64,000 bases of DNA. Origin: Acidimicrobiales bacterium (GTDB lineage: Bacteria; Actinomycetota; Acidimicrobiia; Acidimicrobiales; Aldehydirespiratoraceae). Both the position numbers and the translations under genes were made by a program. Below are positions 21,500-25,251 of this stretch, piece by piece (position 1 is the first letter of the stretch; each line of letters starts with the position of its first letter). The notes beneath the pieces were generated by a model. That model was not told the DNA's origin, made no database searches, and was given only the letters and a program-made list of their open reading frames with translations. The stretch lies in NCBI GenBank assembly GCA_040219515.1, contig JAVJSI010000013.1:124001-188000 (forward strand), written 5' to 3'.

Positions 21500-22699
21500 T
21501 CACAGCTTCTGGAGCAGGGTGCCGGTGCCGAGCCCGCCACCGCAGCACATGGTGACGATGCCGTACTCGATGTCGCTGCGCTGCATCTCGTGCACCGCCT
21601 TGGTCATCAGGATCGCGCCGGTGCCGCCGAGCGGGTGACCGAGACCGATCGCGCCGCCGTTGGGGTTGACCGTGTCCATGTTGGGCGAGAATTCCTTCTC
21701 CCAGGCGAGCACGACCGAGGCGAACGCCTCGTTGATCTCGACCACACCGATGTCGTCCATGGTGAGGCCGTTGTCGGCCAGCAACTTCTGCGTGGCGCCG
21801 ATCGGCCCGGTCAGCATGAGGACCGGGTCGCTGCCGACGAGACAGGTGTCGACGATCCGGGCCAGGGGCTTCAGACCGAGTTCTTCGGCCTTCTCGCTGG
21901 TCATCATCAGCACGGCCCCGGCACCATCACTGATCTGGCTGGCCGAGCCGGCGGTGTGGACGCCGTCTTCGCGGGCCACCGGCTTGAGACCGGCGAGCAC
22001 CTCGAGGGAGGTCTCGCGGATACCGCCGTCGGCGCTGACGGTGACCGACTCGCCGGTGGGCTTGCCGTCGTCGTCGAGCACGGGTACCTGGATCGGCACG
22101 ATCTGGGTGCTGAACGCATCTTCGGCGCGGGCCTTGGCGGCGAGTTCCTGACTACGCAGACCGAATGCGTCTGCGTCCTCGCGGCTGATGCCCCACTGGT
22201 CGGCGATGCGCTCGGCCCCTTCGAACTGCGAGGTCCACTCGTAGTTCTCCCAGTAGCGGGCGTTGACGGGGACCCCGGTGGTGTCGGGATCGGGGATCGT
22301 GGCGCCCATCTTGATCTGGCTCATCAACTCGATGCCGCAGGAGAGCGCAGAATCGACCACGCCGGCCTTGACCATGGCGTAGGCGAGATTGGTGGCCTGC
22401 TGGCTGGAGCCGCACTGGGCGTCGACCGTGGTGGCCGCGACCTCGAGGGGAAGTCCGGCGGCGAGCCATGCGTTGCGGGCGACGTTCATGGTCTGCATGC
22501 CGACCTGGCCGACACAGCCGCCGACGACCTGACCGACCTGGGCCGGGTCCATGCCGGTGCGCTCGAAGATCGCCTTCTGGACATCGCCCAGCAGGTTGAT
22601 GCTGTGCATGGTGGACAGCTCGCCGTTGCGCTTGCCGATCGGGGATCGCACGGCATCGACGATGACAACATCTCGCGAGGAGGGGGCGGTTTCGTTCAT
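21500..22699 (-). CDS. Thiolase / acetyl-CoA C-acetyltransferase
   Basis: A 399-residue thiolase that cleaves 3-oxoacyl-CoA or condenses acyl-CoA units. The nucleophile is Cys96 in VDAQCGSSQQA; the other active-site blocks are EINEAFASVVLAW, GGAIGLGHPLGGTGA (catalytic His) and the C-terminal CCGGGLG (second Cys). The covering-loop repertoire resembles actinobacterial FadA-type enzymes. ATG 22699 was chosen over the longer frame to 22762, because a minus-strand TACGAT box ends 6 nt upstream and a 24-bp operator-like site lies just beyond. It is divergent from an acyl-CoA dehydrogenase operon and probably co-regulated with it. Confidence 0.94.
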   Translation of the reverse strand: MNETAPSSRDVVIVDAVRSPIGKRNGELSTMHSINLLGDVQKAIFERTGMDPAQVGQVVGGCVGQVGMQTMNVARNAWLAAGLPLEVAATTVDAQCGSSQQATNLAYAMVKAGVVDSALSCGIELMSQIKMGATIPDPDTTGVPVNARYWENYEWTSQFEGAERIADQWGISREDADAFGLRSQELAAKARAEDAFSTQIVPIQVPVLDDDGKPTGESVTVSADGGIRETSLEVLAGLKPVAREDGVHTAGSASQISDGAGAVLMMTSEKAEELGLKPLARIVDTCLVGSDPVLMLTGPIGATQKLLADNGLTMDDIGVVEINEAFASVVLAWEKEFSPNMDTVNPNGGAIGLGHPLGGTGAILMTKAVHEMQRSDIEYGIVTMCCGGGLGTGTLLQKL

Positions 22700-22705
22700 G
22701 GTTCC

Positions 22706-22711
22706 ATCGTA
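22706..22711 (-). promoter_or_regulatory. Leaderless -10 box TACGAT for the thiolase gene
   Basis: Minus-strand TACGAT (22711-22706) ends 6 nt before the ATG at 22699. The operator-like site at 22715-22738 begins 3 bp upstream of it. Confidence 0.5.
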
Positions 22712-22714
22712 CCC

Positions 22715-22738
22715 ACAAGTTAGCGATCGTTCACATTT
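22715..22738. promoter_or_regulatory. Operator-like 24-bp site, thiolase side
   Basis: ACAAGTTAGCGATCGTTCAC followed by ATTT. It matches the reverse complement of the site at 22897-22920 in 23 of 24 positions and occupies the -35 region of the thiolase promoter. The core is GA(T/A)CGTTC. A TetR-type repressor encoded elsewhere is the likeliest ligand (inference). Confidence 0.65.
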
Positions 22739-22758
22739 CCCGTTTCGACGACAGCGTT

Positions 22759-22843
22759 GCAACGGGGGTCAGACCCCCGTTGCGGTTTCTTGGGGTCGGT
22801 TCGCGACAGTTGGGACGGTGGGGTCTGACCCCAGTGTCCCAAC
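22759..22843. repeat. Two palindromic hairpins with GGGGTC-GACCCC cores
   Basis: The first hairpin (22759-22783) is a perfect 12-bp inverted repeat around one A. The second (22809-22843) has outer arms GTTGGGAC/GTCCCAAC and inner arms GGGGTC/GACCCC around one T. Both resemble the GGTGTC-GACACC repeat family at 2817 and 63490. They sit between the two operator sites, so they are not terminators of an adjacent gene end. Confidence 0.65.
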
Positions 22844-22896
22844 TTCACGGCGGTGCCGGGACCCAGGAGCGATCGGCGGCGCCGTCTGCCGCGAAG

Positions 22897-22920
22897 AAAT
22901 GTGAACGTTCGCTAACTTGT
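22897..22920. promoter_or_regulatory. Operator-like 24-bp site, acyl-CoA dehydrogenase side
   Basis: AAATGTGAACGTTCGCTAAC followed by TTGT, with an 8-bp palindromic core GAACGTTC. It ends 4 bp before the TAGCGT -10 box at 22925, mirroring the geometry on the thiolase side. Confidence 0.65.
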
Positions 22921-22924
22921 CGGT

Positions 22925-22930
22925 TAGCGT
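22925..22930 (+). promoter_or_regulatory. Leaderless -10 box TAGCGT for the acyl-CoA dehydrogenase
   Basis: TAGCGT ends 6 nt before ATG 22937, directly downstream of the operator-like site. Confidence 0.55.
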
Positions 22931-22936
22931 CGGTTC

Positions 22937-24109
22937 ATGGACTTCGACCTGCCGCCCGAGGGTGATCCCCGTCGGCAGACGCTGCGGTCCTGGCTCACGT
23001 CGAATCCGACGCCGACGGCCGACCAACTCCTCGAAGCCGGACTGATCGTGCCGCACTGGCCCGAGCCCTACGGTCTCGATGCCGACCCGCTCCATCAGCT
23101 GATCATCGACGAGGAACTGCGCCGAGCCGGTGTGCGTCGACCGGTGAATCCGATCGGTATCGGGTGGGCTGCGCCGACGATCCTGCTGGAGGGCACTGAG
23201 GAGCAGAAGTCGCGCTATCTGCCGCCGCTGCTCACCGGCAAGGAGTTCTGGTGTCAGCTGTTCAGCGAACCGGAGGCGGGGTCGGACCTCGCGAGCCTTT
23301 CCACCCGGGCCGAGCGCGACGGCGACGAGTACGTGGTGAACGGCGCCAAGATCTGGTCGAGCTTCGGTCACCGGTCGGCGTTCGGCATCCTCATCGCCCG
23401 CACTGATCCCGACCAGCCCAAGCAGCAGGGCATCTCGTACTTCATCTGCCCCATGGACCAGCCGGGTCTGACGATGCAGCCGATCATCGACATGACCGGC
23501 ATGCATGCGTTCAACCAGGTGTTCTTCGATGACATGCGTCTCCCCGCCGAGAACCTGGTCGGCCGGGAGAACGACGGCTGGCGGCTCGCGAAGGTGACGC
23601 TGGCGAACGAACGAGTGTCGTTGTCATCGGCGGGATCGCTCTGGGGCAACGGACCGAGCGCAGCGGATCTCATCCAGCTCGTGGTCGATACCGGCGGGAC
23701 CGTCGACCCGGTGATGCGCCAGCGACTGGCCGCGCTGCACGCCGACGCCGAGGTGCTTCGACTCAACCGACTGCGCACGCTGAGCAGCAAACTCCAAGGA
23801 CGAACCCCCGGTCCCGAGGCCTCGATCCAGAAGGTCATGGCCGACGAACACGGGCAGGACGTGATGGCGGTCGCGAAAGCCCTCGCCGCCACGGCGGGGA
23901 TGCTCCGGGGCTCCGGCCCCACCGGGCCGACCGGGCAGGTCGACGGGGTCTGGCACTACGGCTACGAGTTCGCTCCGGCCCTCACCCTCGGCGGTGGCAC
24001 ATTCGCCGTACAACGGAACATCATCGGCGAGTCGGTCCTCGGGTTGCCCCGCGAACCCGACGCCGAAGAAGGTCTCACCTGGGCGGAGGCCCGGAGAAAG
24101 CGAGTCTGA
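22937..24109 (+). CDS. Acyl-CoA dehydrogenase
   Basis: A 390-residue FAD-dependent acyl-CoA dehydrogenase that introduces the alpha-beta double bond in acyl-CoA. Visible blocks are the flavin/substrate motif QLFSEPEAGSDLASL, the VNGAKIWSSFGH sheet, the DNLVG-like ENLVGRENDGWRLA, and the C-terminal GGGTFAVQRNIIGESVLGLPRE, which is the usual end of actinobacterial FadE proteins. Length is normal. It starts a leaderless transcript with an adjacent 24-bp operator, and the nitronate monooxygenase-like gene follows after 2 bp. Substrate could be a fatty, branched or steroid-side-chain acyl-CoA. Confidence 0.93.
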   Translation: MDFDLPPEGDPRRQTLRSWLTSNPTPTADQLLEAGLIVPHWPEPYGLDADPLHQLIIDEELRRAGVRRPVNPIGIGWAAPTILLEGTEEQKSRYLPPLLTGKEFWCQLFSEPEAGSDLASLSTRAERDGDEYVVNGAKIWSSFGHRSAFGILIARTDPDQPKQQGISYFICPMDQPGLTMQPIIDMTGMHAFNQVFFDDMRLPAENLVGRENDGWRLAKVTLANERVSLSSAGSLWGNGPSAADLIQLVVDTGGTVDPVMRQRLAALHADAEVLRLNRLRTLSSKLQGRTPGPEASIQKVMADEHGQDVMAVAKALAATAGMLRGSGPTGPTGQVDGVWHYGYEFAPALTLGGGTFAVQRNIIGESVLGLPREPDAEEGLTWAEARRKRV

Positions 24110-24111
24110 TC

Positions 24112-25251
24112 GTGCAGAACGCCGTCACCCGAATGCTGGAGATCGAGTTTCCGATCTTCGCCTTCAGCCATTGTCGCGATGTCGTCGCCGCGGTCTCGAA
24201 GGCAGGGGGCCTCGGCGTCCTCGGCGCCGTGGCGCACTCGGCCGAGGGCCTCGACATCGACCTCCAGTGGATCGAGGACGAGATCGGCGACAAGCCGTAC
24301 GGCGTCGACCTGATCATTCCCGCCAAGTACGCGGGCGATGAGGGTGGCGGCTACACGACCGATGACCTGGTGAAGATGATCCCCGCCGAGCACCGTGAGT
24401 TCATCGACGACATCCTCGCCCGCTACGAGGTACCGCCGCTGCCGGAGGACGAACAGATGCGCCGGCGGGGTATGGATCGTGGTGGCGCCGCGCCGTTCTC
24501 GGCCAACGCAGCAGGTCCCCAGCTCGACGTGGCCTTGGCCCACCGCACCGCATTCGTCGCCAACGCGCTCGGCCCTCCGCCGCAGCACATGATCGACGCC
24601 GTGAAGGGTGCCGGGCGCATCGTCGGCGCGCTGGCCGGCCGTCCGTCGCACGCCGAGGCCCATGAGCGGGCCGGCGTCGACGTCATCATCGCCCAGGGCT
24701 CCGAGGCCGGCGGTCACACGGGCGAGATCGGCACGATGGTGCTCATCCCGGAGATCGTGGACGCCACCACGTGTCCCGTGCTCGGCGCCGGTGGCATCGG
24801 CCGCGGTCGTCAGATGGCGGCGGCCATGGCCCTCGGTGCCCAGGGTGTGTGGTGCGGATCGGTCTGGCTCACCACCGACGAGGCCGAGACCCATCCCGTC
24901 GTGAAGCAGAAGTTCCTGGACGCGACGTCGGCCGACACGATCCGGTCACGATCGCTCACGGGCAAGCACGCCCGCATGCTCAAGTCGGCGTGGACCGAGG
25001 AGTGGGAGCGAACCGACACGCCCGATCCGCTCGGGATGCCGCTGCAACCGATTCTCACCGCCCAGGCCCAGCGTCGCATCGACCGGGCCTCGCACAACGC
25101 CGGGTCCGGTGCGGAGAAGCTCGCCAACTACTTCGTGGGCCAGATCGTCGGCAACATGAACCAGCGGACGTCGGCCACCGCGGTCGTCATGGGCATGGTC
25201 GAGGAGTTCATCGACACCGTCGAGGGCCTGAAGGGCTACCTCGACTACTGA
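24112..25251 (+). CDS. Nitronate monooxygenase / NPD-family FMN oxidoreductase
   Basis: A 379-residue FMN TIM-barrel protein, paralogous to the one at 2905-4029. It has EFPIFAFSHCRDVVAAVSKA with GGLGVLG, the AQGSEAGGHTGEIG block and the phosphate loop GAGGIGRGRQMAAAMALGA. GTG 24112 starts 2 bp after the acyl-CoA dehydrogenase stop, so the two are an operon. Pairing with a FadE protein suggests the true reaction is an acyl-CoA or enone oxidoreduction rather than nitroalkane detoxification, but that is inference. A long perfect inverted repeat lies 18 bp after its stop. Confidence 0.86.
   Translation: MQNAVTRMLEIEFPIFAFSHCRDVVAAVSKAGGLGVLGAVAHSAEGLDIDLQWIEDEIGDKPYGVDLIIPAKYAGDEGGGYTTDDLVKMIPAEHREFIDDILARYEVPPLPEDEQMRRRGMDRGGAAPFSANAAGPQLDVALAHRTAFVANALGPPPQHMIDAVKGAGRIVGALAGRPSHAEAHERAGVDVIIAQGSEAGGHTGEIGTMVLIPEIVDATTCPVLGAGGIGRGRQMAAAMALGAQGVWCGSVWLTTDEAETHPVVKQKFLDATSADTIRSRSLTGKHARMLKSAWTEEWERTDTPDPLGMPLQPILTAQAQRRIDRASHNAGSGAEKLANYFVGQIVGNMNQRTSATAVVMGMVEEFIDTVEGLKGYLDY

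Follow-up and report, generated by a model that had tools for sequence, protein, structure and literature searches.

Mirrored operator sites between thiolase and acyl-CoA dehydrogenase genes of an Acidimicrobiales bacterium point to a small beta-oxidation regulon, with a BkaR/Fad35R-related TetR protein as the likely repressor

TetR repressors of acyl-CoA catabolism are already well known, among them the mycobacterial regulator BkaR/Fad35R (Rv2506; MSMEG_4718). According to the accessible part of its description, BkaR recognizes, as a dimer, a palindromic site whose 16-bp core is GTTA(N)T(N4)A(N)TAAC; it is autoregulated and acts as a repressor of, among other genes, fadE19, encoding an acyl-CoA dehydrogenase (ACAD), and fadA4, encoding a thiolase (PMC3920632). 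In the portion of the Fad35R report available, palmitoyl-CoA lowers DNA binding (PMC4418694), and the genes controlled by Mce3R of Mycobacterium tuberculosis include cholesterol and lipid-transport functions, as given in the available part of that source (PMC11667970). In the paper library searched, no paper on regulons in Acidimicrobiales was found. Here, we analyzed a stretch of 64,000 nucleotides (the window) from an Acidimicrobiales bacterium (GCA_040219515.1, contig JAVJSI010000013.1, positions 124,001 to 188,000), in which two mirrored sites stand between a thiolase gene and an ACAD gene. We propose, with a probability of about 0.6, that these are the operators of a small beta-oxidation regulon under a TetR protein related to BkaR/Fad35R and that a TetR encoded on contig C14 of the same genome is the likely repressor.

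The segments at 22715-22738 and 22897-22920 proved to be reverse complements of one another, with 23 of 24 bases equal and one differing, just as an earlier note on this DNA had described them; that note had also put each site 3-4 bp from a −10 box, and the distances read here were 3 bp on the thiolase side and 4 bp on the ACAD side. The left site, read on the minus strand (22738 to 22715), leads into GGG, the proposed −10 box TACGAT (22711-22706), six further bases, and the ATG of the thiolase gene (22699-22697). Between the right site, read on the plus strand, and the proposed −10 box TAGCGT of the downstream genes (22925-22930; also TAGCGT, at the same offset, in the related genome G003) there are four bases; another six separate this box from the ATG of the ACAD gene at 22937. 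Within these segments we place operator 1 at 22717-22736 (minus strand; 16-bp core, 22719-22734) and operator 2 at 22899-22918 (plus strand; 16-bp core, 22901-22916), each a 20-bp imperfect inverted repeat, drawing on the sequence, shuffled controls, a family-wide scan, and a count of symmetric positions. Paired matches with up to 3 mismatches appeared in 0 of 100 dinucleotide shuffles of the window, and a search of the whole genome with the 20-mer core (≤3 mismatches) recovered the two window sites only.

The gene on the left (21500-22699, minus strand) encodes a thiolase of the acetyl-CoA C-acyltransferase type (Pfam Thiolase_N and Thiolase_C; NCBIfam AcCoA-C-Actrans, 383 bits versus a cut-off of 240.55 bits). 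Judging from the letters, its proposed leaderless start is most likely the minus-strand ATG at 22699 rather than that of the longer TTG frame in the list of open reading frames. On the right, a FadE-like ACAD gene (22937-24109, plus strand; Pfam Acyl-CoA_dh_N, _M, and _1) is followed, 2 bp 3′, by the gene of a nitronate monooxygenase-like flavoprotein (NMO; 24112-25251, plus strand; Pfam NMO), whose G003 ortholog likewise lies behind an ACAD gene. The ACAD and NMO genes likely form one operon.

Searching the bacterium's own genome with the merged pattern GTKAACGNTCRCTMAC (≤1 mismatch) gave eight places, and the reversed control gave none. Beside the two window sites, these were sites at ACAD genes on contigs C8 and C1, the start of the C14 TetR gene, a position near a MoxR-type ATPase gene on C16, and two positions in open, coding-looking frames (C7:270448 and C17:73162) that were set aside as likely chance. 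The own-genome regulon is small, with about five or six credible sites. The C16 sequence, GTTAACGCCCGCTAAC (L260 1501-1516; G000:C16:32254), lies just 5′ of the ATPase gene, which was named by eye, and was kept as a doubtful site.

Across 51 genomes of the family, the pattern TGTGAACGNTCGCTAACTT (≤2 mismatches) matched 53 times in 25 genomes, while the reversed pattern matched 0 times; the earlier note had named a lack of copies in related genomes as part of what would refute it, and the outcome here was the opposite. The surroundings of 44 of these matches were read and, together with one weaker own-genome site (3 mismatches), make up the 45 sites analyzed here; the other 9 matches, whose surroundings were not fetched, were excluded. 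After clustering by adjacent protein, 44 of the 45 sites stood at ACAD, thiolase, or NMO genes, and the remaining one, at a contig end, was left without an assignment. The partners were a first ACAD family (18 sites), thiolase (11 sites, five of them with an NMO gene on the opposite side), a second ACAD family (10 sites), the window's ACAD (2 sites), NMO alone (2 sites), and a fourth ACAD-like gene (1 site). The ACAD labels of the paralogous families correspond to 36-41% identity to the window ACAD, and 27% for the fourth, over the stretches compared. At orthologs of the window ACAD (30 loci, 29 scanned) the motif was present in the own genome and G003 only, since in the remaining lineages it stands at different ACAD families.

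Mirrored pairs recurred in G002 (thiolase and NMO) and in G003 (thiolase and ACAD-NMO, 1.4 kb apart), and in G032 and G035 a single site lies between divergent NMO and thiolase genes. The window arrangement appears to be a variant of a more ancient control region shared by thiolase and NMO genes. The same sites at the same genes in relatives, with the mirrored pairs of G002 and G003, support the joint control of the thiolase gene and the ACAD-NMO operon that had been proposed from the window alone. A genome scan for the regulon and its repressor, which the earlier note had recommended, did yield a small regulon and a candidate TetR; the core on which that scan was to be based, GAACGTTC, is itself unconserved, reading GATCGTTC in the left copy, and the base at that position varies freely among the 44 sites. 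We consider the operators and the regulon sound.

The consensus of the 44 sites was AWGTGAACGNTCGCTAACWT, a conserved unit that forms a rather imperfect, partly symmetric inverted repeat. With the axis at the middle of the 20-mer (9|10), 61% of cells pair over the 44 regulon sites; with the axis at the middle of GAACGTTC, 2 bp away, 56% of cells pair (four of eight). The 20-mer axis is preferred, although not settled, because the conserved block is centered there and because this axis gives the GTTA...TAAC ends of both the TetR-start site and BkaR.

To relate the 45 sites to promoters, TANNNT boxes were counted in the interval from −50 to +59 around each site start. Of 70 boxes, 19 lay at an offset of 23-25 bp (a spacing that 19 of the 45 sites show and on which the proposed thiolase box is based), 10 abutted the upstream end, 40 fell inside the site, and 1 lay elsewhere. 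The 40 inner boxes are the TAACNT-like sequence belonging to the motif itself, which contains TAACWT. Where sites end in AACAT, the inner box is the sole one, and in five of these it stands 6 bases before the ATG. Since TAACTT within the site is itself a TANNNT match, it is uncertain for some genes which box serves as the −10 box. In all, 69 of the 70 boxes are inside the site, abutting it, or 23-25 bp from its start, a position suited to blocking the predicted promoters. Sites that may precede, cover, or immediately follow the −10 box are more in keeping with a repressor than with a sigma-factor element.

The earlier note had expected a TetR-type regulator encoded outside the window, and a candidate that agrees with this was found on C14. 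The own genome has 31 TetR_N matches, and all of their loci were fetched; the pattern GTKANYN4RNTMAC, which is its own reverse complement, was present (plus-strand reading) at one of them, that of P0001, a 201-residue TetR at G000:C14:14435-15037, on a contig other than the window's. Its gene precedes a MaoC-like hydratase gene, and its own start carries GTTAACGTCCACTAAC, with the 16-bp core ending one base before the ATG. When the regions 5′ of 99 TetR-like frames from G000, G004, and G016 were first scanned, this TetR and its counterparts in the other two genomes (three orthologs in all) came out on top, along with two unrelated TetRs, L217 (G004) and L194 (G016). These two were rejected, their scores being due to other palindromes of their own; only L217 also fits the stricter pattern. 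Upstream of 96 distinct TetR-like frames from the three genomes, GTKANYN4RNTMAC hit four, the three orthologs and one unrelated TetR, against 0.35 expected from shuffles.

At the TetR start, exact GTTAACGTTSRCTAAC was found in 17 of 22 family orthologs, as well as in 18 of 23 Acidimicrobiales loci fetched by TetR protein from named records (a set overlapping in part with the family genomes); G000, G021, and G031 have variant TetR-start sites. The core at some TetR starts reads GTTAACGTTCGCTAAC, which is distinguished from GTGAACGNTCGCTAAC, the regulon core, by a single fixed base. At two loci the TetR-start site occurs in tandem, as two copies 26 bp apart (L252 2117-2158; L296 4910-4951). The gene divergent from the candidate TetR gene is of the VWA type, and VWA-type proteins are the usual partners of MoxR ATPases.

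The best solved relatives of the candidate by sequence (phmmer) were both halves of Mce3R (9b7y top overall), then Fad35R/BkaR (4g12). In reverse, a Fad35R fragment ranked the three ortholog TetRs first among the 96 frames, as did an Mce3R fragment. The predicted structure of an ortholog (mean predicted local distance difference test [pLDDT], 82.0; predicted template modeling score [pTM], 0.74), used as a Foldseek query, returned BkaR (6yj2) first and KstR2 next. The recognition helix VSGPAIYRHF was present in the three orthologs and in 4g12, and in 0 of the other 93 frames. Against the NCBIfam SACE_7040 family regulator equivalog, the candidate scored 113 bits, below the cut-off of 250. Protein kinship and operator framework are mutually independent lines, and both point to the C14 TetR. 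Repression by a TetR-family protein is likely, and the C14 TetR is the probable repressor; that it binds the sites we hold to be fairly likely.

Site and regulator also tend to occur together. Among 37 family genomes, 19 had both the site and the TetR, 5 the site only, 3 the TetR only, and 10 neither (Fisher P = 0.0015, without a correction for kinship; the table omits G074, which does not belong to the 61-genome set). In three of the five site-only genomes the absence of the TetR is plausibly an assembly gap, since G003 and G026 are without the neighboring VWA gene too and the G012 contig ends inside the VWA gene.

Several observations nevertheless weigh against control by the C14 TetR. G032 and G035 (L308 and L310) share a deletion of the TetR gene between the VWA and MaoC genes, with a scar in which GTTARCG is left of the TetR promoter and a short C-terminal piece of the TetR gene; both genomes nevertheless keep a perfect thiolase/NMO site. 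With 91.9% identity between the two thiolase genes, the survival of a 19-bp stretch says little for or against selection, and the operator-decay test is uninformative. In G006 (L238; also L285) the TetR gene has an in-frame TAG stop and a degraded TetR-start site, yet four regulon sites are kept with at most 2 mismatches; recent decay, an assembly error, or another reader of the sites may be the reason. The TetR frame of G027 is open, but the site at its start codon is shifted and lacks a part, and G008, G017, and G036, which have the TetR with its own site, have no regulon sites at ≤2 mismatches. Regulon and TetR-start cores differ systematically (GTGAACG versus GTTAACG, and usually TCGC versus TCAC). 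The symmetry of the regulon sites is modest: about the 61% axis, half of the 10 position pairs hold in 80% of sites or more, whereas the W pair does so in 5 sites of 44 and two other pairs in 1 and 2, and the GAACGTTC axis is nearly as good. Finally, nearly all of the 45 sites face their gene in one orientation, even behind the −10 box, whereas a symmetric dimer does not require one fixed site orientation; shared ancestry in the main gene families accounts for part of this bias. Persistence of good sites despite the TetR deletion in G032 and G035 and the TetR stop in G006, the base differences between the two classes of site, and the modest symmetry would all suit real operators and a real regulon read by another regulator, be it another TetR or another kind of repressor, with the C14 TetR controlling, by way of a similar site, only itself and its neighbors. 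However, the pattern was found at none of the other own-genome TetR loci (31 in all, with the search confined to TetR regulators), and only one fixed base separates GTTAACGTTCGCTAAC, at some TetR starts, from the regulon core. We regard this alternative as unlikely, though it deserves to be kept in view.

The near-constant orientation towards the gene and the modest symmetry would also be expected of a promoter element, such as the extended −35 region of an alternative sigma factor, and in 19 of 45 sites GTGAAC is followed, at a distance of about 17 bp, by a TANNNT box. The spacing is not constant, however, with the box abutting the upstream end in 10 of 45 sites and lying only inside the motif in the AACAT sites, and a like site recurs at the TetR's own start. 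Because the box position varies, a sigma-factor element was rejected and is in our estimate very improbable. Sites upstream of the −10 box could suit an activator of the beta-oxidation genes, but those directly downstream of the box, as in the second ACAD family, fit blocking and not activation, and the nearest relative, BkaR, is described as a repressor in the available part of its report (PMC3920632); we give activation only a slim chance. As for chance similarity or a shared intergenic repeat, dispersed hairpin repeats do stand between the two window sites, but operators and hairpins do not overlap, and the family scan, with its 53 matches versus 0 for the reversed control, led us to reject chance, leaving this explanation a negligible probability.

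The two hairpins between the operators stand at 22758-22784 (with GGGGTCAGACCCC) and 22808-22844 (with GGGGTCTGACCCC). They are strong and centered on GGGGTCWGACCCC (DNA fold z-score, −6.78). Eighteen distinct copies with differing arms were seen in the window and in fetched loci of the own and related genomes; the hairpins therefore look like a dispersed repeat family. In a literature search the hairpin 13-mer was not found. Both hairpins are probably outside the switch.

If the C14 TetR is the repressor, a dimer of this BkaR/Fad35R-related protein would bind each 20-bp site and would block RNA polymerase at the thiolase promoter and, on the other side, at the ACAD-NMO promoter. A ligand, probably an acyl-CoA from incoming substrate, would bind the C-terminal domain, upon which the ligand-bound repressor would leave and the thiolase and ACAD-NMO units would be expressed together. 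The C14 TetR would autoregulate through the like site at its own start codon. That the ligand is an acyl-CoA has, by analogy, about an even chance, this choice being suggested by the reduced DNA binding of Fad35R with palmitoyl-CoA. A bolder and rather improbable extension is that a lineage-specific single-domain TetR governs several first- and last-step beta-oxidation enzymes across this Acidimicrobiales family, possibly together with a MoxR-VWA pair, and reads asymmetric sites in one fixed direction. Its binding or response would then be directional even in the absence of a double TetR, and such a protein would go some way towards the asymmetry that is built into Mce3R. For fatty-acid catabolism in Acidimicrobiales, the present analysis supplies an operator together with its targets and names a candidate repressor, and the relatives with a deleted or broken regulator are natural experiments on operator fate.

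Among the described systems, KstR2, a TetR repressor of cholesterol catabolism, was the fold neighbor after BkaR and a weaker match by sequence; its operator, AnCAAGnACTTGnT, is unlike the site here. Mce3R was the top phmmer match and scored above BkaR, but it is described, in the accessible part of its report, as a tandem double TetR with 25-bp nonpalindromic sites (PMC11667970), whereas the candidate is a single TetR of 201 residues. The TetR-type FadR of Thermus thermophilus, which controls fatty-acid genes, has the consensus TTRNACYNRGTNYAA, unlike the operator here, according to the part of its description available (PMC5597230). In the portions of the BkaR, Fad35R, Mce3R, and Thermus FadR literature available, the operator was not found, save for a palindrome between Rv0575c and Rv0576, GTTAGCGCTCACTAAC, which is listed as unbound by BkaR and fits the operator framework here (PMC3920632, Table 1).

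BkaR/Fad35R is the closest single-domain solved relative of the candidate by sequence and ranks first by fold. The two share the helix VSGPAIYRHF, the GTTA...TAAC ends at the TetR start, and ACAD and thiolase genes as targets, predicted ones in the case of the candidate, as far as the BkaR targets are given in the text available. In contrast, the candidate is 28-29% identical to BkaR over the fold alignment, and the BkaR core, as stated in the same partial source, is matched incompletely. The TetR-start site keeps the outer GTTA and TAAC, with the inner T changed to C and the inner A present as A or G; the regulon sites have GTGA at one end and G or A for the inner A. The divergent accD1-accA1-fadE19-bkd operon of BkaR has no counterpart beside the candidate, whose neighbors are VWA and MaoC-like genes (both named by eye), and the predicted targets here are ACAD, thiolase, and NMO genes at scattered loci. 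The C14 TetR appears to work like BkaR but is not BkaR, because its neighbors and the inner bases of its operator differ.

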